From Microbacterium atlanticum (GTDB lineage: Bacteria > Actinomycetota > Actinomycetes > Actinomycetales > Microbacteriaceae): a DNA stretch of 64,000 nt. The DNA lies in contig NZ_CP063813.1 in NCBI RefSeq assembly GCF_015277815.1, positions 3,472,001-3,536,000 of the forward strand, given 5' to 3'. The notes under the pieces were generated by a model. It worked only from the letters and a program-made list of their open reading frames with translations. It was not told the DNA's origin and made no database searches. The position numbers and the translations under genes are program-made. Shown here in pieces: positions 1 to 49,935 of the stretch (position 1 is its first letter; each line of letters begins with the position of its first letter).

Positions 1-621
1 GCCCATCTTCCCCAGCTGCGCGAGCAGCGTCGGGGAGAGGCTGTGCATCGTCGAGGAGAAGTCGGCGGTGAAGCCCAGCCGCTCGGACTGCAGCTCGTCG
101 TACATCTCGCGCATCTGCAGCACCTGAGGGTTGTTCGGCCCGGACGGCGCGTGGATCTCGTAGCCGAGGTACTGGTCGTACTTCTCGGCGAGCGGGAGGA
201 GCCCGCGCAGCAGCTCCTTGCCGTGCGACCGGATGACGACGCGCTTGAAGCCGAGCGTGTGAGCCGTCTTCAGCTGCCGGGCGAGGAAGTCGTGCTCCTC
301 GTCAGGCGTCATGTCGCGGTCCTTGCGGCGACCCATGTCGAGGTTGGTGCCGACCGCGCTCGCCTCGAGTCCGTACTTCTCCAGCGAGTCGAACCAGAGC
401 TTCACGAACTCCTGGTCGACGTCGGGGTAGGTGCGCAGCAGCTGCGCGATGTTGAACTCGACGCCCGGGCCAATCCCCTCCTCCGCCACGGCGGCGATGA
501 GCGTCTCGGGCGTGTAGAGGCCCGCTGCGAACTCGCTCGTCATCGAGTAAAGGGTGGTCCCGAGCTTGATGCCGGTGCCGGCGATGCCGTCCGCGCCGCC
601 CTGCGCCTGTCGAACGGTCAT
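1..621 (-). CDS. TIM-barrel sugar isomerase-like protein, C-deglycosidase alpha-type (partial, C-terminus outside window)
   Basis: Xylose-isomerase-like TIM-barrel protein of which the N-terminal 207 residues are visible; the gene runs off the left edge. The stretches NLDMGRRKDRDMTPDEE, YEIHAP and DFSSTMH also occur, nearly unchanged, in the alpha half of the fused protein at 13797-15278, so it belongs to the family that supplies the metal-binding alpha subunit of C-glycoside deglycosidases. The ATG overlaps the stop of the upstream gene by 4 nt (ATGA), so it is the last visible gene of the leftward sugar operon. Role as a second alpha subunit or a downstream sugar isomerase is inferred. Confidence 0.75.
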   Translation of the reverse strand, partial: MTVRQAQGGADGIAGTGIKLGTTLYSMTSEFAAGLYTPETLIAAVAEEGIGPGVEFNIAQLLRTYPDVDQEFVKLWFDSLEKYGLEASAVGTNLDMGRRKDRDMTPDEEHDFLARQLKTAHTLGFKRVVIRSHGKELLRGLLPLAEKYDQYLGYEIHAPSGPNNPQVLQMREMYDELQSERLGFTADFSSTMHSLSPTLLAQLGKMG

Positions 622-1754
622 GCGGACGCTCCTTGCGTGGTGGGAAGCCAGGCCGCGAGCTGTGCCCGCGCCTCGGCGAGGTCGGTGGTCATGCGCGAGC
701 CGGCCGCCTCGGCCGCCGACCGCTGCACGGCCTGCTCCCCCGCGATGATCTCGAAGGGGGACTGCCAGTAGTTCCAATGCCAGCCCTCGTACTCGCTCGA
801 GATGGCACCGTTGTAGCCGTTCTCGATGAGCAGCGTCACGAGGTCGCGGACCGGCACCGAGGGCTCTTCGCCCGACTCGTCGATGCCGAAGAACTTGCCG
901 TGCACGTGCTTGATCCACGGGAAGATCTCGAGCCAGTCGTCCACGCGCGCCGGTCCGAACAGGCCGGTCGCGTTGATGCCAATGTCGATGCCGAGATCGG
1001 GGCGACCGTGCTGGGCTGCCAGCCCGATGAAGCGGCCGAAGCGCTGGCCGTGGTCGGCCTGGTCGGCCGGCGGGCCCTGCCGGTAGAACTCGTCCCACAG
1101 CCCGGTGACGGCCGTGAGCAGCTCCTCCGAGGCGCCGCGGCGGCGGTAGGCCTCGATGAGCGAGGGCGCGAAGCCCGACACGGTGGCGCCCCAGTCCATC
1201 GTGAATCCCAGGAACGGCGAGCCGACCTTGTCGTAGCGGTCGCGTAGCGCCAGGATGCGCGGGTGGGAGGCGTACTGGTCGGCGTGCACCTCGAGGGCGA
1301 GCGTGACGCCGTACTCCTCAGCGATGGGAGCCAGCGCCTCCATGGAGTCGGGCGTGATCGAGATCTGCACGCGGGCGATGGGGAACCCGAGCTTCGCCGC
1401 GGCCGCGATCTGCCGGCGCATGTACTCCAGCAGCTCGTCCTGGGTGAGCAGGCGATCGCGGTGGATGCCGATGTCGGCGTTCACGGCGAGCGAGGTCGTC
1501 ACGAGCCCGGTCTCGGCGATCAGGTCCTTGAACCAGCCGGCGTAGTGATCGTCGATCTCGGGGAAGCCGCGGAAGCTGGAGAATCCGATGATCTCCAGGC
1601 CCGGCCCGAAGTTCTCGGCCGCGGCCTTGCGGATGAGGCCTTCGAGATCGTACTCGCGTCCGTGGAACGCGCGGGTGAAGCTGTAGAGCGTCACACCCTG
1701 GATGGGGGTGCCTTTGGTCAGCGCGGCGCCGTCCTGAGCCTGTCGAGGGGTCAT
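618..1754 (-). CDS. TIM-barrel sugar isomerase-like protein, probable C-glycoside deglycosidase alpha subunit
   Basis: 378-residue xylose-isomerase-like TIM barrel. Likely metal-binding residues lie in ALEVHADQ, TMDWGATVSGF, HVHGKFFGID and SSEYEGWHW. The start chosen (MTPRQAQ) overlaps the stop of the DUF6379 gene by 4 nt; an upstream extension in the same frame would run through that gene and is rejected. Direct adjacency to a DUF6379 beta-subunit gene and a GMC oxidase is the arrangement known for CarBC/CarA, where the alpha subunit with the beta subunit cleaves the C-C bond of a 3-keto C-glycoside. Which of the two neighbouring barrels is the true alpha partner cannot be decided here. Confidence 0.75.
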   Translation of the reverse strand: MTPRQAQDGAALTKGTPIQGVTLYSFTRAFHGREYDLEGLIRKAAAENFGPGLEIIGFSSFRGFPEIDDHYAGWFKDLIAETGLVTTSLAVNADIGIHRDRLLTQDELLEYMRRQIAAAAKLGFPIARVQISITPDSMEALAPIAEEYGVTLALEVHADQYASHPRILALRDRYDKVGSPFLGFTMDWGATVSGFAPSLIEAYRRRGASEELLTAVTGLWDEFYRQGPPADQADHGQRFGRFIGLAAQHGRPDLGIDIGINATGLFGPARVDDWLEIFPWIKHVHGKFFGIDESGEEPSVPVRDLVTLLIENGYNGAISSEYEGWHWNYWQSPFEIIAGEQAVQRSAAEAAGSRMTTDLAEARAQLAAWLPTTQGASA

Positions 1755-2155
1755 GCTGCCACCGCCTTGCGTGCCGGCATCGTCTTGGTGTCCTTCTCCT
1801 CGATGTGCAGCACCTCGTCGGCGCCGATCACGATGTAGGGGATGTAGAGCACGAGCTCGACGGCGACGGTGTGCTCGTCGGCCTCGCCCACAGCGATGTC
1901 GCCGGAGAGGACCGCGGAATCGGTGGGGAACCACCACTCATCGGTGTTCGGGACGAGCTCGGGGAAGGTGAAGGCTCTGCCGTTCATCTCCCAGCGCAGC
2001 GACTCGGCCGGCGCCTCGACGCCGTCGACGGTGAGCTTCGCACCGGCGATGCACGAGGCGGGGAGGGCGCGGTACCACGGCAGCCGCACCTCGACCGCGG
2101 CCCGTGTGCCGTCGGTCGTGAGCGTGCCCTGCTCGATGATTCGGTCGGGGATCAC
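1751..2155 (-). CDS. DUF6379 protein, C-glycoside deglycosidase beta subunit
   Basis: Small 134-residue beta-rich protein of the DUF6379 (C-glycoside deglycosidase beta subunit) family, with the family-like stretches VEVRLPWYRALPAS and ELVLYIPYIVIGADEVL. The GTG start is preceded by AGGAG six bases upstream. In characterised systems this subunit packs on the TIM-barrel alpha subunit to form the C-C bond-cleaving deglycosidase. It sits between the GMC oxidase (49 bp upstream) and the TIM-barrel gene (ATGA overlap), which supports the call. Substrate (flavone C-glucoside, carminic-acid type, other) is not readable from sequence. Confidence 0.8.
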   Translation of the reverse strand: MIPDRIIEQGTLTTDGTRAAVEVRLPWYRALPASCIAGAKLTVDGVEAPAESLRWEMNGRAFTFPELVPNTDEWWFPTDSAVLSGDIAVGEADEHTVAVELVLYIPYIVIGADEVLHIEEKDTKTMPARKAVAA

Positions 2156-2204: not shown

Positions 2205-3719
2205 TCAGACGGAAGCAAGATCGCGAGCGATGCGGCGCGCGCCGCCCACGGCGAGCGCGACCGACGTGAGGGTCGGGTTGCACGCCGTTGCGGTCGGGAT
2301 GACGCCGTTTCCGGCGACGAACAGACCCTGCACACCCCACACCTGGCTGTCGAGGTCGCACACGCTGGTGCCGTCATCCGTCTCACCCATGCGGGTCGTC
2401 CCCTGGTAGTGCAGCGAGGACCCGAGGGGAAGCGTGAAGGGCCGCGAGTCGAGCGGGTCGCCGATCGCCTCGCCGAGACGCACGATCTCGGCACGCGCCC
2501 GATCGATGACCTCGTGGTCGCGCTCGGTGAGGGTGTAGTGGATGCGGGGAGCGGGCAGCCCGTAGGCGTCCTGCTCGGCGTCGTCGAACTCGACCCGGTC
2601 GTCGGCCTGCAGGTCCTTCGCGCAGAAGAGCCCGAGCCCGACGATCGAGCCGGGGACGACAGGGTCGTCCTCGGCGAGCGGGATGGGCGAGGCATCCAGC
2701 TGCATCACCTGCCCATGGAAGGGGACGTCGTCGGTGAACGGCACCCAGCTGACGCCGCTGTACTCCGCGAGACCGGTCGTGGGAGCATCCGCACCGAGAG
2801 TCTCGACCCCGCGCAGGCGCGAGGCGAACACGACCTGCGCCTGGTCGTTGAGGTACCGCCCGAGGGCGGCCGGACGGATGCCGGACGCCCACAACAGCTG
2901 GGGCGTGCGCAGCGCGTCGGCGGCGACGACCACGAACCGGGCCGCCACCTCGTGCGACTCATCGGAGCGGAGATCGCGCACCCGAACGCCGGCCGCACGC
3001 CCGTCGCGCACCAGCACGGAGGTGACGAGCGACTCGTCGAAGAGCGTGAAGGCGGGGTTGTCGCGCGTGACGTCTCCCAGCACGACGTCTGAGCCGGACC
3101 ATACGAGCCGTCCGTCGTCGCGGCGGTGGGCGGCGAGCGGCATCCGCTGCACCTTGGTCTCGGCTGTCCGCCCCTCGTCGACCGCCTTCGCGAGGCGCTC
3201 GCGGACGATCTCACCGAACGGTGCCGCGTCGAACGCGTTCGTGGTGACGCCGAGGAGCCGGTCGCCCTCGGCGAGCAGCTCGTCGAAGTCGGGGAGGAAG
3301 CCGATGCGCTCGCTGCCGCCCGGGCGCGGACAGGCGCCGGTCCAATGCGCCGACATCCCGCCGACGTTGCTCGACATCGCGACGACCGGCAGCCCGTCCT
3401 CGCCCGGGAACTGGTAGCCGTCCTCGAGGAGGAACGTGCCGGGGCGCGCGGCCCGCACGCCGGCCTTGACGGCTCCCGGATTGGCGACCTTTGCGCCGCG
3501 CTCCCCCGGCCCCTCCGACGCGGCCTGCGCGCGAGCGCGAGCGTCGGGGTCGGCGATGTTCTTCACGTGCGCACCGGGCGGATCCGAGATGGTCGGGCCC
3601 ACCTCGAACATCGCGATGGTCGTCCCGGGCGCCCGCTCGCTGAGGATGCGCGCGTACGCGGCGCCGGTGGGACCCGACCCGACGATGGCGACGTCGACGG
3701 ACTGGGGGTACCGCGTCAT
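2205..3719 (-). CDS. GMC-family FAD sugar oxidase (CarA-like C-glycoside 3-oxidase)
   Basis: 504-residue GMC oxidoreductase. The N-terminal dinucleotide motif GSGPTGAAYARIL binds FAD; the C-terminal domain has the HYQGTTRMG stretch and NGVIPTATACNPTLTS, which carry the usual active-site His and Asn. Start chosen at MTRYPQS, whose ATG overlaps the upstream stop by 4 nt. In C-glycoside catabolism CarA-type enzymes oxidise C3 of the sugar to a keto group, which makes the C-C bond cleavable by the alpha/beta deglycosidase encoded just downstream. A general pyranose oxidase is the alternative, but the neighbours favour the C-glycoside role. Confidence 0.75.
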   Translation of the reverse strand: MTRYPQSVDVAIVGSGPTGAAYARILSERAPGTTIAMFEVGPTISDPPGAHVKNIADPDARARAQAASEGPGERGAKVANPGAVKAGVRAARPGTFLLEDGYQFPGEDGLPVVAMSSNVGGMSAHWTGACPRPGGSERIGFLPDFDELLAEGDRLLGVTTNAFDAAPFGEIVRERLAKAVDEGRTAETKVQRMPLAAHRRDDGRLVWSGSDVVLGDVTRDNPAFTLFDESLVTSVLVRDGRAAGVRVRDLRSDESHEVAARFVVVAADALRTPQLLWASGIRPAALGRYLNDQAQVVFASRLRGVETLGADAPTTGLAEYSGVSWVPFTDDVPFHGQVMQLDASPIPLAEDDPVVPGSIVGLGLFCAKDLQADDRVEFDDAEQDAYGLPAPRIHYTLTERDHEVIDRARAEIVRLGEAIGDPLDSRPFTLPLGSSLHYQGTTRMGETDDGTSVCDLDSQVWGVQGLFVAGNGVIPTATACNPTLTSVALAVGGARRIARDLASV

Positions 3720-6556: not shown

Positions 6557-9500
6557 ATGTCAACGACACCGCCCTCGGCGCCCTCGTCCGGTCTGTGGGC
6601 GCGCTTCGTCGATCCGCCGGACGACGCTCGCCCGCGGGCGTGGTGGCACTGGATGGACGGGAACGTCGACCCGGCCGGCATCGTGCGCGATCTGACGTGG
6701 CTGCATTCCGTCGGGGTGCGCGGCGTCCAGCTCTTCGAAGGGGGCATGGGCGTTCCGCAGATCGTGCCCGAGCGTGTCCGTCCGGGGACAACGGCCTGGC
6801 GGGAGGCGATCGGGATCGCGCAGCGCACGGCGGCCGACCTCGGACTCGAGCTCGCGGTCGCGACCTCCGCGGGATGGAGCGCCACCGGCGGGCCGTGGGT
6901 CGAGCCCCGCGACGCGATGAAGAAGGTGGTGTGGTCCGAGGCGGTCGTCCACGGGGGCGGCAGGCGTGCCGTCGAGCTGCCGCCGCTGCCCGGCGCCGCG
7001 GGGCTCTTCCAGGACGCCGCCCGGTGGGGAGCCGCCACGCGCGAGCCATGGGCGACCGACTGGCGAGTGGTCGCGCTCCCCGCGGACGACGCGCACGCGG
7101 TGCTCGTGCCCGACCGGGTTCACGCGTCGGCTCCGGTGGGCGATGACGCCTGCCTGACCGACGGGTCGTTCGAGCGCGCGCTGGCCCTGCCGCGTGATCC
7201 CGACGGCTGGTCGTCCGCCTGGCTGGAGGTCGAGTTCGAGGAGCCCGTGACGGTCGGTGCGGTCACCGTGGGACTCCCCGGCCCGCGCGGATTCGGTGCG
7301 GCGCCCCCGCCGGACGCCGTGCTCGAGGCGGGGGACGGCGAGGACCTCCGACCGGTCGCGACGCTCGAGGCGACCACCGTGCCCGCTCGCACGGCGACCT
7401 TCCCACCCGTCACCGCCCGCAGATTCCGCCTCGTCCTCTCCGGGGCGAGCGCGGCTGAGGCGCTCCCGCCCGCCGCGGACGGCGTGCGCACGCCGCCGGT
7501 GCTGCGCCGCAGCGACGCGTTCCTCGTCTCCGAGTTCGCGCTGCGCGCCGGCGGCCGCATCCACCATGCCGAGGCGAAGGCCGGGTTCGGGGTCGTCGCC
7601 GACTACTACGCCGTCGACACCGACCGGGCAGCGGATGCCGCGTCCGTGGCCCCTGCGGACGTGCACGACCTCACCGACCTTGTTCAGGGCGGAAGGCTGG
7701 AGTGGGATGCTCCTCCCGGACGGTGGCGCATCCTCCGGCTCGGCGCGTCGCTCACGGGTCAGACGAACGGCCCCGCCCTCCCCGATGCGACCGGGCTCGA
7801 AGTCGACAAGCTCGACGGCGCCCGGGTCGCGGCGTTCCTGCGGCGCCACCTCGCCGAGTTCGGCGCGGAGTCGTTCGACGCCCTGCTGAGCGACAGCATC
7901 GAGTCCGGCAGCCAGAACTGGACCGAGGACGTCGCCGAGAGATTCCTCGAGCTGCGGGGCTACGACCTGACGCCGTGGCTCCCGACGCTCGCGGGGTACC
8001 TGGTGGGCGGGGCAGAGGCATCCGACCGCTTTCTCTACGACTATCGCCGCACGCTCGCCGAGCTCCTCGCGACCGAGTACTACGGCACGCTCGCGTCGGA
8101 GGCGCAGCGCCGCGGCATGATCTACTACGCCGAGGCGCTCGAAGACAGACGCCCCCAGCTCGGCGACGACCTCGCGATGCGGGCGCACGCCGACGTGCCG
8201 ATGGGCGCGATGTGGACGTTCGACCCCGCTTCCGGCCCGAAGCCGACGTATGTCGCCGACATCAAGGGTGCGGCATCCGTTGCCCATCTCCACGGCAGCA
8301 GGTGGACCGGAGCGGAGGCGTTCACGAGCTTCGACCGGCCGTGGTCATCGTCGCCCCGCAGCCTCAAGCACGTCGCCGACCTGCAGCTCGCGCTGGGCGT
8401 CACCCGGTTCTGCATCCACACCTCGCCCCATCAGCCGCTCGGCGCTCCGCCGCCCGGGGTGGCACTCGCGCCGTTCCTGGGTCAGGCGTTCACGGTCAAC
8501 GAGACCTGGGCCGACATGGCGGGACCGTGGATCGACTACCTCGCGCGCTCGTGCGCGCTGCTCTCCGCCGGCGAGCCCGCCGTCGAGATCGCCGTGTTCA
8601 TCGGCGAGGAGGCGCCGGTCACCGCGCTGTTCGGCGACGCCTACGACACCGCCGTGCCCGACGGGTTCGACTTCGACTACGTGGGATCCGACGCGCTCGC
8701 ACTGCTGCGCGTCGGGGACGACGGCGCCCTGAGGTCGCCGGGCGCGCGATACCGGCTGCTGTTCCTCGGGGGATCCAGCCGCAGACTCACGGTGGCGACA
8801 CTGCGTCACGTGAAGCGGCTCCTCGACGCGGGTGCGACGATCGTGGGCCCGGCACCGGACAGCTCACCGTCGCTCGGCGACGACGACGGCGAGTTCCGGC
8901 GGCTTCGCCAGGAGGTCTGGGCCGCGGGGCGCGAGGCCGGCCGCGTCATCGCCACCTCGGACCTGGCCGCCGCGCTGGCGCTCCTCGACCTGCGGCCGGA
9001 GTTCGAGATCACCGGCGCCCCGGTGCGCACCATCGCACGCCTCGTGGACGGACATCGGGTGACGTTCCTGGCCAATCCGGCCGGCCACGACGTTCGCGTG
9101 CGGATCCTCGTTCCCGAGCGCGTCGGCGCCCTGAGCGCCTGGGACCCTGTCGAGCTGCGTGCCGTGGCGCTCCCCGCCGTCCGCGCCGACGGCGCGCGCC
9201 TCGCAGTCGACGTCACGCTCCCCGCGTTCGGGTCGCTGTTCGTCGTCCCCGACGCGGCGGGTGCGGCACCGACGGCGCCTGCGGCGACGCAGGTTCACGC
9301 GGCATCCGTGCGCCCGCTCGGCGGCCGCGGGTGGACTCTCGCCCTACCTGGCCGGCGCGAAATCGCGCTGGCGGTCGGCCCGGGGCTGTGGACGGAGCTC
9401 GGCGCCGATGGGAGCGGATTTTCGGGGACCGGGATCTATCGGGCGGAGTTCGACGTGAGCGAGACGGTCGAGGACGGACGTGCCTGGATCGATCTCGGCC

Positions 9501-9778
9501 GCCTCCACGACATCGCGCGGGTCGTCGTCAACGGCGTCGACTGCGGCGTCGCCTGGACGGCGCCTTTCCGGGTGGAGGTCACCGCGGCGCTGCGGGTCGG
9601 CGCCAACGTGATCGAGGTGGCGGTGGCGACCCCCTGGCGCAACCGGCTGGTCGCCGAGGCCGGGCATCCATCGGGCGAGATCTTCCCGCCGATGACGGAG
9701 GTGTTCGAGCCGTCGGCCGAGCCGCTGCCCGCGGGGCTCGCAGGACCGGTCACCGTCCGTCTTGAGAATGGCGGCTGA
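6557..9778 (+). CDS. GH106-family glycoside hydrolase (alpha-L-rhamnosidase-like)
   Basis: 1073-residue protein of the GH106 type, recognised from the N-terminal RPRAWWHWMDGNVDPAGI stretch, the TIM-barrel core, and a C-terminal beta-sandwich (about 940-1070) ending with VATPWRNRLVAEAG. GH106 enzymes remove alpha-L-rhamnose from flavonoid glycosides and plant polysaccharides. No signal peptide is visible, so it should act inside the cell on imported rhamnosides. GAGGATGAGGGA precedes the ATG. Divergent from the C-glycoside operon and followed by its sugar-binding protein, which suggests that rhamnosylated glycosides are substrates. Confidence 0.8.
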   Translation: MSTTPPSAPSSGLWARFVDPPDDARPRAWWHWMDGNVDPAGIVRDLTWLHSVGVRGVQLFEGGMGVPQIVPERVRPGTTAWREAIGIAQRTAADLGLELAVATSAGWSATGGPWVEPRDAMKKVVWSEAVVHGGGRRAVELPPLPGAAGLFQDAARWGAATREPWATDWRVVALPADDAHAVLVPDRVHASAPVGDDACLTDGSFERALALPRDPDGWSSAWLEVEFEEPVTVGAVTVGLPGPRGFGAAPPPDAVLEAGDGEDLRPVATLEATTVPARTATFPPVTARRFRLVLSGASAAEALPPAADGVRTPPVLRRSDAFLVSEFALRAGGRIHHAEAKAGFGVVADYYAVDTDRAADAASVAPADVHDLTDLVQGGRLEWDAPPGRWRILRLGASLTGQTNGPALPDATGLEVDKLDGARVAAFLRRHLAEFGAESFDALLSDSIESGSQNWTEDVAERFLELRGYDLTPWLPTLAGYLVGGAEASDRFLYDYRRTLAELLATEYYGTLASEAQRRGMIYYAEALEDRRPQLGDDLAMRAHADVPMGAMWTFDPASGPKPTYVADIKGAASVAHLHGSRWTGAEAFTSFDRPWSSSPRSLKHVADLQLALGVTRFCIHTSPHQPLGAPPPGVALAPFLGQAFTVNETWADMAGPWIDYLARSCALLSAGEPAVEIAVFIGEEAPVTALFGDAYDTAVPDGFDFDYVGSDALALLRVGDDGALRSPGARYRLLFLGGSSRRLTVATLRHVKRLLDAGATIVGPAPDSSPSLGDDDGEFRRLRQEVWAAGREAGRVIATSDLAAALALLDLRPEFEITGAPVRTIARLVDGHRVTFLANPAGHDVRVRILVPERVGALSAWDPVELRAVALPAVRADGARLAVDVTLPAFGSLFVVPDAAGAAPTAPAATQVHAASVRPLGGRGWTLALPGRREIALAVGPGLWTELGADGSGFSGTGIYRAEFDVSETVEDGRAWIDLGRLHDIARVVVNGVDCGVAWTAPFRVEVTAALRVGANVIEVAVATPWRNRLVAEAGHPSGEIFPPMTEVFEPSAEPLPAGLAGPVTVRLENGG

Positions 9779-11399: not shown

Positions 11400-12872
11400 T
11401 CAGCCGAGCGGGCGGTACCGGAAGTCGCGGAAGCGGACCGCGCCTTTCCCGGCGGCGTACAGCGCGGGACGAAGGCTCAAGAGGTCGGCCATCGTGTTGG
11501 CGTGATATCCCGACACCTCGTACCGGATCGCGTGGCGGGTCCACTGGCCGCCGGGCTCCCGGTACCAGCCGGTGACGATGTGCTCGTCGTTGCGCAGGCG
11601 CAGCTGCAGGCGACGAACGGCGGGCGCCGGCTCCCGCCAGTGCGTGACGTGCCCGCCGGCGTAGCTGCGCATCCGCTCGGCGTCGATGCCCATGCCGCAG
11701 AAGAGCCGGTCGTTGAAGAAGAGGAGAAGGCCCCCCTCGGCGTCGTCGCCGACGAGTTCGAGATCGACCTCCACCTCGTAGGAGTGGTCGCCGGTGAGGA
11801 CGGCGAGCGGTGAGGTGTCGCCGGGACCCGTGCCCTTTCCGCTGAGCACGAGGCCGTCGTCGAGCGCGAGGCGCGCCGTCTCACCGGGCTGCGGTGCGTG
11901 GAACGCCCACCGCTCACCGAGTCGCAGGGTCGAGAAGTCGTCGTGGTACGCCGCGGGCGGCCTTTGCGCCGCAGCGCCCGCGGGAGCCTCCACATCGGCC
12001 CCGATGTCGCCGCGCACCCCGAGGGGCCAGCCGTCGTCCGACCACGCGATCGGCTCGAGGAGAATCTGCCGTCCCAGGGTGCGGTACCCGTTCTCATAGC
12101 CGTGCGAGATCATCCACCAGTCACCGGCCGGCCCGGGCAGCATCGTCGCGTGTCCTCGCGACCACCAGGTCTGCGAGGCATCCGTCGTCCTCGCGACGGG
12201 ATTGTGCGGGCTGTTCTCCCACGGCCCATGGATCGATCGCGACCGCGCGACGATGACCATGTGCCCCGTGGGCGGACCACCCGTGCCGCCCACGGCGCTG
12301 ACGAGGTAGAACCAGTCGCCGCGCCGGAACAGCTTGGGCCCCTCGAGCGCGTACGCCTCGGTGATCCAGTCGTCGGGGTAGCGCCAGCCGTCGTACACCT
12401 GCTCGAGCTCGCCGTCGGTTGCCAGACCGTCGTCGGTGAGCGCGATGCGACGGATGCCGTTGACGAAGAGGTAGCGTCTGCCGTCCTCCCCGACCACGTG
12501 GCCGGGGTCGATCGCCCACCGGATCCCCAGGTCGATGGGCTCTGACCACGGACCCGCCATCGAGTCGGCGTGGATCACGAAGATCGACGGGGCGGTCAGC
12601 GGCGACCACGGTGCGGGGATGAACGGGATGTAGATGAAGAAGCGGCCGTCGTGCTCGGCGATGTCGACCGCGAACGTGCTGCCCAGCGGCTCGGGAAGCG
12701 CCGCGCACTCGTAGGTCCAGTTCACGAGGTCGCGCGAGCGGTAGAGCAGCAGTCCCGGCGCGGCCTCGAACGACGAGTACGTCATCCAGTACTCGCCGCC
12801 CACCTTGATGACGGCCGGGTCGGGCCGGTCCCCACCCAGGACGGGATTGCGGAACGTGGTCCGGTCAGCCAT
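11400..12872 (-). CDS. GH43-family glycosidase (beta-xylosidase / arabinofuranosidase-like)
   Basis: 490-residue five-bladed beta-propeller glycosidase. The three family acids are visible: the base Asp in RPDPAV (residue about 18), the pKa-tuning Asp in AIDPGH, and the acid Glu in ALEGPKL. A C-terminal beta-sandwich (about 320-490) contains HDDFSTLRLGERW. No signal peptide is seen, so it is probably intracellular. Last gene of the leftward operon with the esterase and fused deglycosidases; it may trim xylose or arabinose from glycoside side chains. Confidence 0.85.
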   Translation of the reverse strand: MADRTTFRNPVLGGDRPDPAVIKVGGEYWMTYSSFEAAPGLLLYRSRDLVNWTYECAALPEPLGSTFAVDIAEHDGRFFIYIPFIPAPWSPLTAPSIFVIHADSMAGPWSEPIDLGIRWAIDPGHVVGEDGRRYLFVNGIRRIALTDDGLATDGELEQVYDGWRYPDDWITEAYALEGPKLFRRGDWFYLVSAVGGTGGPPTGHMVIVARSRSIHGPWENSPHNPVARTTDASQTWWSRGHATMLPGPAGDWWMISHGYENGYRTLGRQILLEPIAWSDDGWPLGVRGDIGADVEAPAGAAAQRPPAAYHDDFSTLRLGERWAFHAPQPGETARLALDDGLVLSGKGTGPGDTSPLAVLTGDHSYEVEVDLELVGDDAEGGLLLFFNDRLFCGMGIDAERMRSYAGGHVTHWREPAPAVRRLQLRLRNDEHIVTGWYREPGGQWTRHAIRYEVSGYHANTMADLLSLRPALYAAGKGAVRFRDFRYRPLG

Positions 12873-12892: not shown

Positions 12893-13804
12893 TCATCGGG
12901 CGATCCACTCGGCGATCGCCTCGACCGTCGGCAGCGCGGTGGGGTCGGCGGGCTCGTTGATGTGCCCGTGGTCGGCGCCCGGCTCCAGCCGCAGTTCGAT
13001 CGCGACACCGGCCTCCTCGAGCTGGCGGGCGAACGCCTCACCCGACGGGCGCAGGCCGTCGTGCTCGCACACGACGACCAGCGTCGGGGGGAACCCCTCG
13101 GACGGCCCGAGGGCGGCGAACGCATGCGGATCGGCCAGCACGGCCGGCGAGCCCGCGAAGTTGGATGCGAGGGAGCCGTGCGGGGAGTCCGGGTCGACCT
13201 CGCTCGACGCGTCGGGACCGTTCGGGTGCACGACGGGGTAGACGAGGACGAGCCCGGCCGGGCCCGGCTCGGCGGCATCCCGCAGCCGCGCCGTGGCACC
13301 GGCGGTGAGGTTGCCGCCGGCGCTCGCACCGCCCAGCGCGACGGCCGACGCCGGCACGCCGAACAGCTCCTCGGCGTTCGCGATCGCGTGACGCCAGGCG
13401 GCGAGCACGTCGTCCGAGGGCTCCGGGAAGTGCACCTCGCCGAGGCACTTCACGTAGTCCACGGCGAGCACCGGGACGCCGCGGGCCGCGAGCTCCATGG
13501 CCACCCAGTGCGATTCCGGCATGTCGAGGTGCCCCCCGATGAAGGCGCCGCCGTGCACCCACACCAGAGCGCGACCGGATGCCTCGGCCGAGGCATCCCG
13601 GTACAACCGACCCGGCACGAGCCGCCCACGCGGCCCGTCGATGCGGAGGTCGGTCGTCTCGACATCCGCGAGGCGCGGGAAGCGCCTCTTCAGCGAGGCC
13701 GTGTCGATGTCGGTGCGCGGGTCGGCCGGCTCGCCGTGCTCGCGGAACAGCCGCAGCACCTCGGAGAGCGGCAGCGTGCGGAAGTCGACCTCGGTGTCAG
13801 ACAC
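12893..13804 (-). CDS. Alpha/beta hydrolase (hormone-sensitive-lipase family esterase)
   Basis: 303-residue alpha/beta-hydrolase-3 protein. The oxyanion motif is HGGAF, the nucleophile elbow GGASAGGN (Ser in the centre), with the acid in EHDGLRP and the His in GADHGH. Start chosen at the GTG that overlaps the upstream stop by 8 nt; a longer in-frame reading is an antisense-like extension rich in Arg/Ser. In this operon it could remove acetyl or acyl groups from decorated glycosides. Confidence 0.85.
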   Translation of the reverse strand: MSDTEVDFRTLPLSEVLRLFREHGEPADPRTDIDTASLKRRFPRLADVETTDLRIDGPRGRLVPGRLYRDASAEASGRALVWVHGGAFIGGHLDMPESHWVAMELAARGVPVLAVDYVKCLGEVHFPEPSDDVLAAWRHAIANAEELFGVPASAVALGGASAGGNLTAGATARLRDAAEPGPAGLVLVYPVVHPNGPDASSEVDPDSPHGSLASNFAGSPAVLADPHAFAALGPSEGFPPTLVVVCEHDGLRPSGEAFARQLEEAGVAIELRLEPGADHGHINEPADPTALPTVEAIAEWIAR

Positions 13805-15278
13805 GGGCGCCGGCCACCGCGCGCATCGAGCGCCGGATGAGGTCGTGCTGCCTGCGCACGAGGAGCAGCGGGTCGACCTCGCCCAGCTCGGCGAACGCGT
13901 GCCCCTCCCACTCGCTCGACCAGTAGCCTCGGTAGCCGCCCTCGACGAAGACGCGAACGAGCTCGGGGTAGTCGATCGCCGGCTCCTGGCCGTCCTCGTC
14001 GATGTCGTAGAACTTCGCGTGCACGTGCAGGATCTGCGGCATGATGTCGGCCCACTCGCGAGGGTCGACGTGCCCGTGCATGTTGAACGCGAGGTGCGCG
14101 AACGCGCCGAGACGCCCGGGATCGAAGTCCCGGCCCTGGAGGTAGCCGATGAACTCCTGCTGCCGTTCGCGCATCGAGGCGTCCGTCGCCCAGATCTGCT
14201 GCAGCCGCTCGACCGCCTCATCGTCGAGACCGGCGCGGCGGACGGCGCGCAGCAGCGTGGGCGACATCGCGTGCATGGTCGAGGAGAAGTCGGCGACGAA
14301 GCCGAGCAGCGGTGAGTCGAGGTCGGCGTAGACGTCGCGCACCTTCATGATCTCGGGTGAGTTCGGGCCCATCGGGGCGTGGATCTCATACGCGAGCTTG
14401 AGCTCGAGGGTCTCGGCGACCGGCAGCAGGCGTCGCAGCAGCTCGGGTTTGGCGCTCTGGATGCGCACGAGCGGGAAGCCCAGCTTCTTCGCGCCCTGGA
14501 ACAGCCGCTCACTGAACGCAAACTCCTCGTCGGGCGTCATGTCGCGGTCACGGCGGCGACCCATGTCGAGGTTCGCGCCGAACGAGCTCGCATCGAAGCC
14601 GTGGCGGTCGAACGCGGCGCGCCACTGCACGACGAACTCGTCCGAGACCACGGGGTACGTCGGCAGCACCTGGGAGGCCACGATCTCGATCCCCGGTCCG
14701 ATGCCGAGCTCGGCCACACGGTCCAGCAGCCCGTCGAAGTCGTACCAGCCGGCGCGGAACTCCGCGCTCGCCGAGTACAGGGTGAGGCCGAGCTGGAAGG
14801 GGTCGTCCGCGGCGGCAGGGGGCGGGGGCGCCACATCCGACGTGGTCGCGAGAGGTGCGGCATCCGTCTCCGTCACGGTCAGCGTGAGCGACTGCCGGAC
14901 GATGTTGGGCACGTAGAGGCCGGGCCCGCCGTCCTCGCCCGGCGCGATCTGCATGTACGGCAGGCGCAGCTCGCCGAAGATCTCGATGGCGTGCGCCTCG
15001 CCGAGGGCGGCGGGCTGGTCGAGGCGGACGACGAGGAGCGGATGCTGCTGCAGGAACCACAGCGTCTCGCTCTGCTGCGGCAGCTCGGCGACCGCGTACC
15101 GGCGCCCGGCGAGCTCGAAGGCGAGGTCGCCTGCAGGGATCTCGGTGCCGTCGACCGTGACGCGCAGGGTTGAGACGGACGAGAGCCACAAGCTGCGGTA
15201 CCAGGGGATCGTGAGCTTGAGCGCGAGCCCCTCGGGGTGCGGGCGGAGGCTGTCTTCGGCGATGAGTCCGTTGGGCAT
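13797..15278 (-). CDS. Fused C-deglycosidase-like protein: DUF6379 beta domain + TIM-barrel alpha domain
   Basis: 493-residue protein that joins a DUF6379-like beta-subunit domain (about 1-125, including LKLTIPWYRSLWLS and ELRLPYMQIAPGE) to a TIM-barrel alpha domain (about 155-480) through a Pro/Ala linker (PPPPAAADD). The barrel has YEIHAP, ADFSSTMHAMS, HVHAKFYDID and SSEWEGH, which carry likely metal ligands. It starts at MPNGLIAED with GGAGA upstream. Known C-deglycosidases have these as two chains, so this is a natural fusion. Substrate unknown; regulation probably by the LysR at 16815. Confidence 0.75.
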   Translation of the reverse strand: MPNGLIAEDSLRPHPEGLALKLTIPWYRSLWLSSVSTLRVTVDGTEIPAGDLAFELAGRRYAVAELPQQSETLWFLQQHPLLVVRLDQPAALGEAHAIEIFGELRLPYMQIAPGEDGGPGLYVPNIVRQSLTLTVTETDAAPLATTSDVAPPPPAAADDPFQLGLTLYSASAEFRAGWYDFDGLLDRVAELGIGPGIEIVASQVLPTYPVVSDEFVVQWRAAFDRHGFDASSFGANLDMGRRRDRDMTPDEEFAFSERLFQGAKKLGFPLVRIQSAKPELLRRLLPVAETLELKLAYEIHAPMGPNSPEIMKVRDVYADLDSPLLGFVADFSSTMHAMSPTLLRAVRRAGLDDEAVERLQQIWATDASMRERQQEFIGYLQGRDFDPGRLGAFAHLAFNMHGHVDPREWADIMPQILHVHAKFYDIDEDGQEPAIDYPELVRVFVEGGYRGYWSSEWEGHAFAELGEVDPLLLVRRQHDLIRRSMRAVAGARV

Positions 15279-15298
15279 GGTCTTCTCCGGTGGGTGCG

Positions 15299-16600
15299 TC
15301 AGAGACGGGAGGCGATCGAGCGGATGAGCGAGTGCTGGCGGCGCACCTGCTCGATGGAGCGCCACGGGGTGCGCTCCCCCTCGTACTCGCTGGAGAGGTA
15401 GCCGGTGTAGCCGGCGTCCTTGAGGGCACGCAGCACCGGCTCCCAGGGGATCTGCTGATCCTCGAGGTTCTCGTCGATCTCGTGGAACTTCGCCTGGATG
15501 AAGACGACGTACTTCGCGATGTCGGCGATGTCGGCGGGGTCCACCGCGATCCCGTCCATGAAGGCGGGGCGACGGCCGGGCAGCTCACCGGGCTTCAGCG
15601 GAATCGGACGGTCCTGGAAGATGCCGGTGTCCAGCAGCAGCCCGAAGTGCTTCGTGCCGGTGCGCTCGATGAGCCCGATGTAGTCGTCGACCACCTCGTG
15701 CCTGATGGGCGTCGGCGAGTGGATCTCGGGGCAGATGACGACGTCGAGCTCGGCGGCGAGGTCGAGCGACCGCTCGACCGACTCGGTCCAGATCGGGTGT
15801 GGGATCAGGTCGCTCGAGACGACGCCGATCTTCGGCCGCACGAAGCGGAAGCCCAGCTGCTTCGCGAGCCGGAGGTCGCGCTGCAGCATCGCGGCGCCCT
15901 CCGTCGCCGTGAGGTCGCGCGCGTTCGCGCCGCTGGAGTGCAGCCGCGTGTCGATCCACGACCCGTAGTTCGTCGGCTCCAGCGAGTAGGTCTCGAGCAG
16001 GGCGAACCAGCGGTCGATCCAGGCGGTGGTGGGTTCGGGGTACCGCTCGATGTGCCCCTCGCCGAGGATCTCGATCCCCGTCGCGCCGACGTCGGAGACC
16101 GCGGCGAAGGCGGTCTCGAGGTCCATCACCGTGCCGTAGTCGGTCATGAAGCTGTAGAGGCTCACGCCGTACTGGAAAGGGCCGCCGTCCTCCGCCGACG
16201 TGAGGGTGATGTGGCGCGAGACGTCGTACGTCGAGGGCTGATGCTCCTTGGGGATGTACGACATGCGCAGGCGCAGCTGGATCGAGACCTCGTGCGTCCC
16301 CTCCGGCAGCCCGCCCGGGTGGGGCACCGTGACGATCGCCGCCTCCTCCAGCGGCCAGCGCACGCCGTCGGAGTCCCACAGTTCCTGCAGCGAGTACGTC
16401 CGGTCGCCGAACGTCCACCGCGGCACATCGGCGGGAACGTCGACGAGGTCGCCGACGCGCACCGAGACGCCGTCGATGAGGGATGCCGCCATCCCGCGGT
16501 ACGACGGCATGCGCAGGCGGAACTGGAAGCCGGTCACCTCACCCCCGTCGCGGACGTTGCGGAAGCCGACGGACTGGATGAGGTCTCGTTCGAGAAGCAT
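15299..16600 (-). CDS. Second fused C-deglycosidase-like protein: DUF6379 + TIM barrel
   Basis: 433-residue protein with the same order: a DUF6379-like domain (about 1-130, FRLRMPSYRGMAASLIDG and LRLRMSYIPKEH) and a TIM barrel (about 140-425) with VICPEIHSPTP, LLLDTGIF, FIQAKFHEID and SSEYEGE. Its sequence is clearly diverged from the neighbouring fused gene (20 bp downstream), so the pair is an old duplication or a functional heteropair. First gene of the operon opposite the LysR regulator. Confidence 0.75.
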   Translation of the reverse strand: MLLERDLIQSVGFRNVRDGGEVTGFQFRLRMPSYRGMAASLIDGVSVRVGDLVDVPADVPRWTFGDRTYSLQELWDSDGVRWPLEEAAIVTVPHPGGLPEGTHEVSIQLRLRMSYIPKEHQPSTYDVSRHITLTSAEDGGPFQYGVSLYSFMTDYGTVMDLETAFAAVSDVGATGIEILGEGHIERYPEPTTAWIDRWFALLETYSLEPTNYGSWIDTRLHSSGANARDLTATEGAAMLQRDLRLAKQLGFRFVRPKIGVVSSDLIPHPIWTESVERSLDLAAELDVVICPEIHSPTPIRHEVVDDYIGLIERTGTKHFGLLLDTGIFQDRPIPLKPGELPGRRPAFMDGIAVDPADIADIAKYVVFIQAKFHEIDENLEDQQIPWEPVLRALKDAGYTGYLSSEYEGERTPWRSIEQVRRQHSLIRSIASRL

Positions 16601-16814
16601 CGATGCTCACTCTCTGGGTCGTGACCGCGCGGATGGCAGGCCGGGAGCAGTTCGAGCATACCAGTGTTAGGCGTGAAAGCGACATAAGTGGGTTGGATGC
16701 GGGCATAACCGAGACACCGTCAGCCCATCGCCGCGGGCGATGCCACCTACCGACCACATAGACAGCGCGGATACACTGGGGGGAGGCATCCCGAACCCGG
16801 AGGAGCACATCGAC
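16601..16814. promoter_or_regulatory. Divergent promoter region, fused deglycosidase operon / LysR
   Basis: A 214-bp spacer between the leftward operon and the LysR gene, with a less GC-rich core at about 16655-16705. LysR proteins normally bind such a shared spacer. GGAGGAG at about 16798-16804 is the ribosome site that favours the GTG at 16815. I could not assign a convincing T-N11-A box. Confidence 0.5.
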
Positions 16815-17789
16815 GTGTCGGACCAACCGCTCCTCTCCCGGCTGGATCTCAACCTGCTCGTCGCCCTGGACGCCCTCCTGACCGAGCGCAGCGTCACCCG
16901 CGCCGCCGAGCGGCTGCACCTCAGCCAACCCGCGCTGAGCGCCTCGCTCGCACGCCTCCGCACGCACTTCAACGACCCGATCCTCGCGCGGCGCGGCAAC
17001 ACCTACGAGCTCACCCCGCTCGCGCTCCGGCTGACGGAGCACACCACGACCGCGCTCGAGGCCGCTCGCCGCGTCTTCGAGAGCCAGGCGACCTGGAGCC
17101 CGCGCGACTCCACGCGCGAGTTCTCCGTCTACGGATCCGACTACGGGTTCGCCACCATCGGCAGCGAGGTGTCGCGCCTGGCCGCCGAGTCCGCGCCGGG
17201 GGTCCGCTTCCGGTTCATGCTGCACAACCCGTCGATCGTCGACGACGCCCTCAACCGCCTGCGGGCCGCCGACGGCATGGTGATCCCGCACGGCCACCTC
17301 ACCGACCTCCCCTACGCCGACCTCTGGCGCGACGACTGGGTGGTCGTCGCGTCGGCGAGCAACGACCTGGTCGGCGACGAGCTCAGCATGGACGTGCTCG
17401 GCGCGCTGCCCTGGGTGTTCACCTACCAGTCGCGCACGGCGTTCACCTCGGCGGCGCGGCAGCTGCAGCAGCTCGGCATCGAGCCGCGCGTCGAGGCGGT
17501 CGTGGAGAGCTTCCTCGCCCTGCCCCACTTCATCGCCGGCACGGACCGTCTCGGCCTCATCCAGGCCGGCCTCGCACACGTCGCCGAGTCGGTCGCCGGC
17601 GTCCGCACGCTGCCGGCGCCCTTCGACGCCACACCCGTGGTCAACGCGCTGTGGTGGCATCCCGTCCACGGCCGTGATCCCGAGCACGCGTGGATGCGCG
17701 GCATCTTCGAGCAGGCCGCGGCCAACGTGTCGGCACGTCGGTCGCCGTCGGAAGCGGTCGCCAGCGCGGAGGTCACGGCTCGAGCGTGA
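16815..17789 (+). CDS. LysR-family transcriptional regulator
   Basis: 324-residue LysR protein (GTG start, GGAGGAG ten bases upstream; a longer ATG reading from 16740 is possible). N-terminal winged HTH with SVTRAAERLHLSQPALSASLARLR and a C-terminal periplasmic-binding-like effector domain. The wing region PILARRGNTYELT resembles NodD/NahR-type regulators that sense plant aromatics. Divergent from the fused deglycosidase operon, its likely target. The 3' end overlaps the convergent thioesterase gene by 17 nt. Confidence 0.85.
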   Translation: MSDQPLLSRLDLNLLVALDALLTERSVTRAAERLHLSQPALSASLARLRTHFNDPILARRGNTYELTPLALRLTEHTTTALEAARRVFESQATWSPRDSTREFSVYGSDYGFATIGSEVSRLAAESAPGVRFRFMLHNPSIVDDALNRLRAADGMVIPHGHLTDLPYADLWRDDWVVVASASNDLVGDELSMDVLGALPWVFTYQSRTAFTSAARQLQQLGIEPRVEAVVESFLALPHFIAGTDRLGLIQAGLAHVAESVAGVRTLPAPFDATPVVNALWWHPVHGRDPEHAWMRGIFEQAAANVSARRSPSEAVASAEVTARA

Positions 17790-21066: not shown

Positions 21067-22239
21067 TCAGCGCTCCAGCACGACGGCGAGGCCCTGCCCC
21101 ACGCCGATGCAGATCGCGGCGACGGCGACGCCCCCGCCGCGGCGGGCCAGCTCGTGCGCCGCGTGGCCGATGATGCGCCCGCCCGAGGCCCCCAGGGGGT
21201 GGCCGATGGCCAGCGCGCCGCCGTGGATGTTGACGCGTTCGGGATCGAGGCCCTCCCACCCACGGATGTCGGCCAGCGACTGCGACGCGAACGCCTCGTT
21301 CAGCTCGACGACGTCGACATCGGCCCAGGTGCGGCCGGCGCGGGCGAGCGCCTTGTTCGCCGCCTCGATCGGCGCCAGCGGGAACTGGTCGGGATCGACG
21401 CCGTGCGCGGCGCGGGCGGTGATGCGGGCGAGCGGCTCGCCGTCGAGCGCGCCCTCGCGGCCCAGCAGCACCGCGGAGGCCCCGTCGTTGATCGGCGACG
21501 AGTTGCCCGCGGTGACGCTGCCCTCGCCGTCCGCGGCGAACAGGGCCTTGAGGCCGGCGAGCTTCTCGACGGAGGTGTCGTCGCGGATGCCCTCGTCGCG
21601 CGCGAGCTCCGCGCCCGGCACCTGCACGACCTCGCCGTCGTAGACGCCCGCCGCCCACGCCTCGGCGGCCAGGCGGTGCGAGCGCACGGCGAAGGCGTCC
21701 TGCGCCTCGCGCGAGATGCCCTGCTCACGCGCGATCTTCTCCGCGGACTCCCCGTTCGAGATGGTCCAGTGCGTCGGCAGCCTCGGGTTGGTCATGCGCC
21801 AGCCGATCGAGGTGTTCCACAGCGTCTGGTTGCCGACGCTCGGCCACGGCCGGGCCGACTTCTCGACGACGAACGGCGCGCGGCTCATCGACTCGACACC
21901 GCCGGCCAGCACGATGTCGGCGTCGCCGGCCTCGATCGCGCGCGAGCCCTGGATGACCGCCTCGACCGATGACGCGCACAGGCGGTTGACGGTGACTCCG
22001 GTGACGGTCGTCGGGAAGCCGGCCAGCAGCGCGCCCATGCGCGCGACGTTGCGGTTGTCCTCCCCCGCCTGGTTCGCGTCGCCGAAGATCACGTCGTCGA
22101 TGCGGGCGGGGTCGAGTCCCGTCCGCTCGATGGTCGCCTTCATCACGACCGCGGCGAGGTCGTCGGGCCTGACCCCCGAGAGGGCCCCGCCGGCGCGGCC
22201 GAAGGGCGTGCGGACGGCGTCATAGACGTAGGTCGCCAT
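21067..22239 (-). CDS. pcaF: Beta-ketoadipyl-CoA thiolase
   Basis: 390-residue thiolase that cleaves beta-ketoadipyl-CoA to acetyl-CoA and succinyl-CoA, the last step of the pathway. The nucleophilic Cys is in NRLCASS (about 90), the His in NIHGGALAIGHPLGASG and the second Cys in AICIGVGQG. Start at MATYVYDA with GGAAGGTG upstream; one base separates it from the pcaJ stop. Context with pcaIJ makes the beta-ketoadipyl assignment firm over acetyl-CoA acetyltransferase. Confidence 0.93.
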   Translation of the reverse strand: MATYVYDAVRTPFGRAGGALSGVRPDDLAAVVMKATIERTGLDPARIDDVIFGDANQAGEDNRNVARMGALLAGFPTTVTGVTVNRLCASSVEAVIQGSRAIEAGDADIVLAGGVESMSRAPFVVEKSARPWPSVGNQTLWNTSIGWRMTNPRLPTHWTISNGESAEKIAREQGISREAQDAFAVRSHRLAAEAWAAGVYDGEVVQVPGAELARDEGIRDDTSVEKLAGLKALFAADGEGSVTAGNSSPINDGASAVLLGREGALDGEPLARITARAAHGVDPDQFPLAPIEAANKALARAGRTWADVDVVELNEAFASQSLADIRGWEGLDPERVNIHGGALAIGHPLGASGGRIIGHAAHELARRGGGVAVAAICIGVGQGLAVVLER

Positions 22240-22240
22240 G

Positions 22241-22921
22241 TCATTCACCTTCCCGGATGCCGCGGCGTGCGGCATCCGTCAATTCCAGGCCGGTGAGCTC
22301 GGCGAGGAGCTCGACGGTGTTGTCGCCGAACGCCTCGCGCACGGCGAAGCCCTCGGGCGTGACGTCGAAGACGGCGTGATCGGTGTAGACCCGCGTGACG
22401 CAGCCGACGCCGGTGAGGGGATACGTGCACGCCTCGACGAGCTTCGACTCGCCGGTCTTGGTGAGCAGGTCGGTCATCACGTAGACGTTCTTCGCGCCGA
22501 TCGCGAGGTCCATCGCGCCGCCGACGGCCGGGATGGCGCCCGGCGCGCCGGTCGACCAGTTCGCGAGGTCGCCCGTCTGCGACACCTGGAACGCGCCCAG
22601 CACGCAGACGTCGAGGTGACCGCCGCGCATCATCCCGAACGAGTCGGCGTGATGGAAGTACGCAGCCCCGGCGAGCGCCGTGACCGGCTGCTTGCCGGCG
22701 TTGATGAGGTCGGGGTCGATCTGGCCGCGCTGCGGCGACGGTCCCATGCCGAGCATGCCGTTCTCGGTGTGGAGGATGATCTCCTGGTCGGCGGGCAGGT
22801 AGTCGGCGACGAGGGTCGGAGCCCCGATGCCGAGGTTGACGTACGAGCCCTCGGGGATGTCCTGCGCGATGCGCGCGGCGAGCTGCTCACGGGTGATGCG
22901 CGTGGCGGTCGTGTCGGTCAC
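22241..22921 (-). CDS. pcaJ: 3-oxoadipate CoA-transferase subunit B
   Basis: 226-residue beta subunit. The catalytic Glu that forms the CoA thioester is in HTENGMLGMG (about 52-61). It activates 3-oxoadipate with succinyl-CoA. GTG start overlaps the pcaI stop by 4 nt, so the two subunits are translationally coupled. Confidence 0.93.
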   Translation of the reverse strand: MTDTTATRITREQLAARIAQDIPEGSYVNLGIGAPTLVADYLPADQEIILHTENGMLGMGPSPQRGQIDPDLINAGKQPVTALAGAAYFHHADSFGMMRGGHLDVCVLGAFQVSQTGDLANWSTGAPGAIPAVGGAMDLAIGAKNVYVMTDLLTKTGESKLVEACTYPLTGVGCVTRVYTDHAVFDVTPEGFAVREAFGDNTVELLAELTGLELTDAARRGIREGE

Positions 22922-23679: not shown

Positions 23680-23697
23680 GCGGCCTCCGGTCGGTAT

Positions 23698-23712
23698 GTT
23701 CGCTGTGCGAAC
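23698..23712. promoter_or_regulatory. Palindromic operator upstream of pcaI (PcaR-type)
   Basis: GTTCGCTGTGCGAAC: perfect 5-bp arms around 5 bases, 19 bp upstream of the pcaI ATG. It closely resembles the known PcaR/PobR-type box of Pseudomonas (GTTCG...CG half sites), and the IclR gene of that subgroup lies in the same cluster. Confidence 0.65.
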
Positions 23713-25443: not shown

Positions 25444-25528
25444 ATGGGGGTGGTCCTTCCGTGTGTCGGCGTCGACAGCGTCCCCGTCGTCGATGACGGG
25501 GTAGGACCATTATCAAGTTTCCTGATTG

Positions 25529-25975: not shown

Positions 25976-26013
25976 GGCGTCCCCCAGCCCGTCATGCGAT
26001 GAGCATACGGCCG

Positions 26014-30034: not shown

Positions 30035-30101
30035 CAAGGTCTCCTTCGACGACTCGGGTCGTCCCAGGGTCGCACCCGGAACCTCTGCGCCGGTGGTGGA
30101 T

Positions 30102-30116: not shown

Positions 30117-30196
30117 TTGCGGATGCCGCGGGTCGAGGCATCCGCTTCTCGTGGTCCGGCCTGGGGTCGACCGCGCCGGCGAGCGCACGGCCTCCT

Positions 30197-47571: not shown

Positions 47572-49935
<2,364 letters not shown>

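Follow-up and report, generated by a model that had tools for sequence, protein, structure and literature searches.

Two adjacent genes in a 64,000-nucleotide stretch of the Microbacterium atlanticum genome (NZ_CP063813.1, assembly GCF_015277815.1; hereafter the window, whose positions are used as coordinates) each encode a C-glycoside deglycosidase (CGD) beta domain followed by an alpha-type TIM barrel in a single chain. The products, P0002 and P0001, are two natural fusions, with domain matches far past chance. Their domain content, conserved catalytic residues, occurrence as a tandem in many species, and placement in different clades form the basis in hand for regarding them as what they probably are, two single-chain 3-keto-glycoside lyases of the CGD family, encoded in one operon and differing in aglycone range; it is from sequence that we infer lyase activity for both. 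C-glycosides are resistant to hydrolysis, and the lyases published as opening them consist of two chains. The two chains are found joined and separate many times, with weak signal for the direction of change. What is new here is not the fused CGD as such: it is that the P0001 type is unsolved and forms a clade of its own, that the tandem is conserved, and that the two fusions differ in predicted pose.

Both genes are complete and lie on the same strand, 20 bp apart (Table 1). Pfam searches placed the CGDB domain (PF19906, the CGD beta domain, equivalent to DUF6379) at residues 3 to 115 of P0002 (E = 2.6e-33, 114.6 bits) and 16 to 108 of P0001 (E = 8.9e-14, 51.7 bits), against a cutoff of 27.6 bits. 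AP_endonuc_2 (PF01261) was found at residues 165 to 417 of P0002 (E = 1.5e-16, 61.3 bits) and 186 to 469 of P0001 (E = 5.2e-9, 36.6 bits), with a cutoff of 31.1 bits. A sequence-only reading of this DNA had proposed two adjacent genes of this architecture, with an N-terminal match to DUF6379, clearly diverged sequences, and different linkers, and each of these points held. The proteins are 25% identical across 484 aligned columns, and the last sandwich strand is separated from the first barrel strand by 9 modeled residues in P0002 (134 to 142) versus 27 in P0001 (135 to 161). The gap between domain envelopes is 9 to 10 residues in 30/30 P0002-type fused rows, one suspect row (L075) included, and 26 to 37 residues in 30/30 P0001-type fused rows. 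Since both Pfam domains recur throughout the best 120 of 1313 matches to P0002 and the best 120 of 900 matches to P0001 (queries included), the fusions are not assembly artifacts of this genome. At least one-fifth of the rows in the VIA list for P0001 cover residues 151 to 493 only. NCBIfam assigned no family to either protein; in public databases, many such proteins are already named C-glycoside deglycosidase beta subunit domain-containing protein.

Table 1. Features of the fusion genes and their neighbors in the window
Feature	Positions	Strand	Remarks
P0002	15299..16600	-	ATG start, 433 aa; CGDB-barrel fusion of the EuCGD/DfgAB-like clade, without lid insertion
P0002 beta (CGDB, PF19906) domain	16256..16594	-	Residues 3-115; beta Tyr (PSYR) retained
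P0002 alpha (TIM barrel)	15302..16186	-	Residues 139-433; Glu, catalytic His, Asp, Lys, and Glu retained
GGAGAAG	15282..15288	-	Probable ribosome-binding site for P0001, directly ahead of its ATG in the 20-bp space between the two genes
P0001	13797..15278	-	ATG start, 493 aa; CGDB-barrel fusion, sister of AgCGD2-type split pairs, with lid insertion
P0001 beta (CGDB) domain	14955..15233	-	Residues 16-108; beta Tyr (PWYR) retained
P0001 long linker, Pro/Ala rich	14796..14876	-	Residues 135-161; modeled strands stop at 134 and resume at 162
P0001 alpha (TIM barrel plus lid)	13818..14804	-	Residues 159-487; catalytic His and all five metal ligands retained
Alpha/beta hydrolase (Abhydrolase_3)	12893..13804	-	Likely GTG start, 8-nt overlap with the P0001 stop
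GH43 glycosidase	11400..12872	-	Final gene of the likely P0002-P0001-hydrolase-GH43 operon
LysR-type regulator	16740..17789	+	Divergent from the fusion genes; homolog in 61/80 relatives' loci
GMC oxidase	2205..3719	-	Nearest PDB entries 7QF8 (850 bits) and 7DVE (800 bits)
Split beta subunit (CGDB)	1751..2155	-	Its TGA overlaps the alpha ATG (ATGA)
Split alpha subunit	618..1754	-	Nearest PDB entry 7DNM_A, 179 bits

The P0002-P0001 pair is not rare. A scan of named genomes with a P0001-led alignment returned 264 relatives; counts out of 80 refer to the best 80, chosen by resemblance to that alignment. All 80 are 60 to 89% identical to P0001, and they span Microbacterium, Agromyces, Leifsonia, Subtercola, Naasia, Arthrobacter, Pseudarthrobacter, and others. 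They include members of two species from which split CGDs have been published (PMC8563793), Arthrobacter globiformis NBRC 12137 and M. trichothecenolyticum DSM 8608, as well as Pseudarthrobacter siccitolerans 4J27, of a species known for a glycoside 3-oxidase. A P0002-type fusion lies directly upstream of the P0001-type gene at 64 of the 80 loci; at 63 of these, 12 to 91 bp separate the last P0002-type codon from the start of the P0001 beta envelope, and at the other (L137) the two overlap by 4 bp. The P0002-type fusion lies 1.2 kb upstream at one further locus (L126) and downstream at two, and the upstream P0002-type pair is split at three. At one locus (L101) the contig ends within the P0002-type fusion, at another (L161) no single open frame covers the P0001 gene, and at eight there is no P0002-type gene within 6 kb of the P0001-type gene. 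L161 is titled Planococcus sp. and has an actinobacterial-type locus with 87% identity to P0001; it is probably a mislabeled or mixed assembly. The named loci also hold homologs of the ABC binding protein (57/80), the isomerase (41/80), the LysR regulator, and the GMC oxidase (24/80). Among sampled genomes, the CGDB domain itself was found in 68 of 295 from the genus, 20 of 299 from the family, 16 of 396 from the order, and at least 5 of 396 from the phylum, with 3 in the phylum sample above the cutoff; the samples overlap, and the window's own genome is counted in each.

A search of solved structures identified a single-chain Microbacterium testaceum protein, a C-glucosyl deglycosidase according to its entry titles (8QRZ, crystal, and 8UN2, cryo-electron microscopy; wild type, released 2025-04-23), to chain A of which residues 1 to 433 of P0002 align with 798 bits and 78.5% identity. 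The two share the beta-alpha single-chain architecture over their full length, and both carry Gln at the position of the ligand His269 (AgCGD2 numbering, used throughout). A fused CGD is therefore not a new kind of protein: the kind is already known, and the P0002 type is solved. P0001 has the domain order alone in common with 8QRZ, having an extra lid, a long linker, a different predicted domain pose, 24 to 25% Foldseek identity, and a TM score of 0.50 to 0.57; no single-chain structure is found among its PDB matches. Its barrel and beta domain match chains A (431 bits) and B (110 bits) of 7DNM, which with 7DNN represents AgCGD2 (AgCarB2-C2) from Arthrobacter globiformis, a published split enzyme that acts on C8-glycosyl flavonoids. 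AgCGD2 has two chains, and its split relatives place alpha before beta in 24/24 cases, whereas P0001 is one chain with beta first. Among split enzymes of known structure, EuCGD (DfgAB; 7BVS and 7DRE) comes nearest to the P0002 barrel (208.9 bits), and its barrel is likewise short and lacks the lid; EuCGD is a two-chain alpha4beta4 enzyme (PMC8563793), whereas P0002 is one chain, and in the alignment DfgA has His at the position where P0002-type proteins have Gln. CarBC/MiCGD and PuCGD (DgpBC) share the fold pair and catalytic residues with the fusions but are two-chain systems. The split pair of the window (0.6 to 2.2 kb) differs from the fusions, as the sequence-only reading had held, and it forms its own five-row clade apart from both; the label "Mi-like" for this pair is an assumption.

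Catalytic residues were counted over 164 aligned alpha/beta rows, L075 included. In the P0001 type, the metal ligands E147, D179, H269, K271, and E305, the catalytic H149, and the beta-domain Tyr are retained in 30/30 rows, and N248 and M249 are also retained. P0002-type rows retain E147, D179, K271, E305, H149, and the beta Tyr in 45/45, but ligand H269 is replaced by Gln in 44/45 (FIQAKF in P0002 itself), as it is in 14/15 split P0002-type enzymes. The earlier expectation that both barrels would keep the metal ligands of the alpha subunit was thus borne out in full for the P0001 type; the P0002 type keeps four of the five and so partly touches the condition that had been set to refute the reading. 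Gln can be a metal ligand in other sugar-isomerase-like barrels. The catalytic His, two residues past Glu147, and the beta Tyr, corresponding to Tyr39 of PuCGE, are both present in 75/75 rows of the two types; the roles of this His and Tyr have been described (Kastner 2026, PMC13273386), and the Tyr is required for C-glycosides and only slightly for O-glycosides (Bitter 2023, PMC10628242).

The domains, nearest structures, and conserved residues together make single-chain 3-keto-glycoside lyases the most likely identity of the two proteins, in line with what had been read from the sequence. The neighboring GMC oxidase would first oxidize the glycoside at C3; the barrel metal would then hold the 3-keto sugar while the barrel His moves the C2 proton toward the leaving group, and the beta domain would cap the pocket, with its Tyr activating the phenolic aglycone, so that the C-C (or C-O) bond is broken by beta-elimination. 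The resulting 2-hydroxy-3-keto-glucal would be hydrated by an AtHYD-like barrel and then reduced by Gfo/Idh proteins of the cluster. Different aglycone ranges would be expected of a P0001 that is a fused sister of the AgCGD2 type and a P0002 that is a fused form of the DfgAB/EuCGD short-barrel type. The two also differ in build, the P0002 join being short, barely more than the native ends, and P0001 having a long linker and a different predicted pose.

Several observations weigh against this assignment. The P0002 type carries Gln at one of the five ligand positions where, in the split enzymes PuCGD and MiCGD, each alanine replacement dramatically lowered activity, costing most of it at this ligand (Mori 2021, PMC8563793). 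Where AgCGD2 has Arg123, which touches the aglycone in its published docking model, 30/30 P0001-type rows have Gln. The fusion operon itself contains no oxidase, and a GMC oxidase homolog (39 to 77% identity) is present in only the 24 loci noted above. We found no report of activity for close fused relatives in the open-license literature, nor any paper there on 8QRZ, DUF6379, or fused CGDs. Finally, the GH43 and GH106 proteins and the esterase-like Abhydrolase_3 neighbor, all in the same stretch, fit the breakdown of O-glycosides equally well. The fusions could indeed be mainly O-glycoside eliminases, generalist lyases that act on the 3-keto-O-glucosides of plant phenolics and cleave C-glycosides little or not at all, an explanation that overlaps with the preferred one and that we regard as a real possibility short of a likely one: PuCGE eliminates 3-keto-O-glucosides too, and O-glycosides far outnumber C-glycosides (PMC10628242). 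The beta Tyr, specifically needed for C-glycosides in PuCGE, is however kept throughout both types, the O-only enzyme AtOGE functions without a beta subunit (PMC10628242), and the depositors of 8QRZ named this P0002 relative a C-glucosyl deglycosidase.

To place the two lyase candidates among their relatives, 80 fetched regions and the window's genome were combined, giving 170 open reading frames (ORFs) with a beta domain, 69 fused with a barrel and 101 separate; the regions were chosen from match lists, some for looking split, and 69 versus 101 is no frequency. Regions L055 and L058 gave no profile match. Three split ORFs lacking an alpha partner and three with a short alpha (L060, the first of L045, and the last of L030) were dropped, leaving 164 rows, which were thinned at 80% identity to 59; removal of the long rows L045 and L057 left 57. 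In L075 (G1145, 68% complete), the join enters the alpha frame ahead of its normal start, as would follow from a one-base shift; the row was removed for this reason to give a 56-row tree, and it is still counted in the residue, linker-gap, and domain-order tallies. Only the 57-row tree used for the approximately unbiased (AU) test came from a careful search, the other trees being short-search results.

In trees of alpha plus beta, split AgCGD2-type pairs form the sister group of the P0001-type fusions; the P0002-type fusions fall in a different clade, mixed with split relatives. P0001 and the AgCGD2-type pairs, so labeled from their own and P0001's resemblance to 7DNM, group in both the alpha tree (100) and the beta tree (99), values from short searches. 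Each type is recovered from alpha alone and from beta alone, with little support from beta for the P0001 type by itself, and the two halves have thus traveled together; the beta domains of the two types lie in clades far apart. A single fusion followed by duplication into P0001 and P0002 was rejected, the AU test giving p = 6.4e-8 for one clade of both (10 versus 47 rows, L075 included) and p = 8e-61 without L075 (quick tree, 9 versus 47 rows); the tested groups were defined by trait and not from the tree, yet were tested after the tree had been seen. The two fusions therefore sit in separate clades, a result compatible with an older fused ancestor that was split many times. Within the P0002 type, the test rejected a single clade of fused rows when L075 was included (p = 3.1e-6, 7 versus 11 rows) but not without it (p = 0.276, 6 versus 11 rows), and for that reason we do not claim repeated fusion there.

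Fused and split states change 8 times on the 56-row tree, with at least 4 changes forced by branches at 95 or more; removal of L075 lowered these numbers from 9 and 5. The beta domain comes first in 69/69 fused ORFs, in agreement with the common order that a genome survey was expected to find, and in 147/147 fused ORFs of the named loci (a redundant set, mostly of the P0001 and P0002 types). With the nearest split relatives of P0001 placing alpha first, fusion order does not simply copy operon order. In 15/15 split P0002-type pairs, beta stops at TGA and alpha lies in the +2 frame; the overlap of stop and start reads ATGA (13), GTGA (1), or TTGA (1), and beta runs 9 residues past its domain. 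The gap of 9 to 10 residues in the fusions is close to this tail length, and the P0002 fusion thus looks like native ends run together.

Separate fusion events are favored, slightly by parsimony, over a single ancient fusion that later split repeatedly. Under midpoint rooting, 8 changes are needed from a split ancestor versus 9 from a fused one; if only fusions are allowed 8 are needed, and if only fissions 11. That both proteins descend from one old beta-alpha fusion, split many times, seems rather unlikely to us: the near tie in parsimony and the identical domain order of all fused ORFs would suit it, but 40/56 thinned rows are split, the sister group of the P0001 type consists of split pairs in reversed gene order, and the two fusions have unlike linkers and predicted poses. 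With close split and fused relatives in one bacterial family, the effects of joining an obligate heterodimer on assembly, specificity, and expression become addressable, and work on C-glycosylation enzymes could start from single genes.

The AlphaFold model of P0002 superimposes on the 8QRZ chain with a TM score of 0.95 and 2.0 Å over 433 aligned residues, so that the whole-chain pose matches; the P0001 model gives a TM score of 0.5 and 17 Å against the whole chain, and its pose does not match. The overlay of predicted structures that had been proposed, made here on single-chain 8QRZ, therefore supports a common arrangement for P0002 but not for P0001. It had further been argued that the fused order explains how the subunits must dock. 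This is not supported, as the whole-chain poses of the two models differ, suggesting that beta-alpha order does not fix docking, and the closest split relatives of P0001 put alpha first; the disagreement between predicted poses cautions against inferring subunit docking from domain order. A more specific idea, which we hold tentatively and think somewhat doubtful, is that the enzyme was fused twice in opposite topologies, with linker length setting the quaternary state. About 9 residues (∼30 Å when stretched) would be too few to pass from the foot to the mouth of the same barrel, and the P0002 sandwich would cap a neighboring chain in a domain-swapped homo-oligomer, which suits the alpha4beta4 split relative DfgAB; a 27-residue linker would let the P0001 sandwich cap its own barrel, which suits the alpha-beta heterodimer AgCGD2. 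That P0002 and P0001 instead form one hetero-oligomer, each beta domain capping the barrel of the other protein, is improbable: the adjacent genes in constant order at 64/80 loci and the short P0002-type linker would fit, but P0002-type genes occur in genomes in which no P0001 type was found (L013/G026, L018/G045, L027/G171, L043/G494), P0001-type genes lack a P0002-type neighbor within 6 kb at 8/80 loci, the two beta clades are far apart, and PuCGD and EuCGD subunits are not exchangeable (PMC8563793, Mori 2021).

Because the hydrolase start overlaps the P0001 stop and GH43 comes next, P0002-P0001-hydrolase-GH43 looks like a single operon. The GMC oxidase is the likely supplier of 3-keto substrates; its nearest structures, 7QF8 and 7DVE, we take to be PsG3Ox and MtCarA. 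A barrel encoded upstream of the window, L006:16055-17059(-), matches the hydratase AtHYD (8RO4) with 125.7 bits and adjoins ThuA and Gfo/Idh genes, and four Gfo/Idh/MocA proteins are encoded in the 20 kb upstream of the window; the cluster also holds an isomerase-like barrel, two permeases, and a solute-binding protein. Each of the four steps, oxidation, elimination, hydration, and reduction, thus has a candidate here, in parallel with the AtOGE/AtHYD (PMC10628242) and LgdB1/LgdB2 (PMC7676230) beta-elimination pathways, whose four-step logic is matched here by oxidase, lyases, AtHYD-like hydratase, and Gfo/Idh; for Lgd, no beta part is described in the available portion of PMC7676230.

The levoglucosan cluster pairs two sugar-isomerase-like enzymes for elimination and hydration (PMC7676230), and one could imagine a similar division of labor, with one fusion eliminating and the P0002 type hydrating 2-hydroxy-3-keto-glucal or carrying out another sugar step, as the conserved His269-to-Gln replacement in 44/45 P0002-type rows might suggest. 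We consider this improbable: an AtHYD-like barrel is already in the cluster and both fusions have the elimination residues, the P0002 type retaining the catalytic His and the aglycone-activating beta Tyr, and split P0002-type enzymes carry the identical Gln. 8RO4 is absent from the sequence matches of P0001 and P0002 (E 0.001), and by Foldseek it is a weak match for P0001 (rank 48, TM score 0.36 to 0.50), as for other barrels.

P0001 and P0002 are two of five CGDB genes within 31 kb of this genome; of the other three, one is in the window's own split pair (618-2155), one in another split pair immediately upstream, and one in a third fusion, also upstream. The third CGDB-barrel fusion has 482 aa and lies 14 kb upstream of the window at L006:6049-7494(+) (G000:C1 3458049-3459494). 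In its clade, fused in 5 rows and split in 5, Gln replaces the catalytic His and Ile replaces the beta Tyr in 10/10 rows, and the five metal ligands are retained; judged by these residues, it possibly catalyzes a different reaction. The second split CGD, of the AgCGD2 type, extends from L006:18347-18760(-) to about window position 615(-), alpha then beta, with a SnoaL_4 protein gene in between; its alpha-beta spacing of about 790 to 850 bp recurs across many relatives. The barrel at L006:16055-17059(-) also matches SCO6571 (2ZDS, listed as a putative DNA-binding protein) with 522 bits, and SCO6571 may be a 2-hydroxy-3-keto-glucal hydratase. Between the permease genes and the binding-protein gene (window 6557-9778) lies the gene for a GH106 alpha-L-rhamnosidase-like protein of 1073 aa, which suits rhamnosylated plant glycosides.

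Farther along, window positions 21067-30226 encode protocatechuate 3,4-dioxygenase alpha and beta and a pcaIJ-type CoA transferase above cutoff, with a pcaF-like thiolase below cutoff and a pcaB-like protein at 351.3 bits, just below 355.75; for the last, nitrosuccinate lyase scores higher, also below its cutoff. Three GCV_T-type proteins are encoded at 48526-49935, 58917-60284, and 62283-63818. The first is above the cutoff for the LigM-type vanillate/3-O-methylgallate O-demethylase (875 bits), and the second is nearer the syringate type, below that cutoff. The protocatechuate and LigM-type genes would suit breakdown of a released phenolic aglycone. At window 41879-41969, ARAGORN reported an odd tRNA with a two-base anticodon that overlaps a predicted ORF and is probably false.

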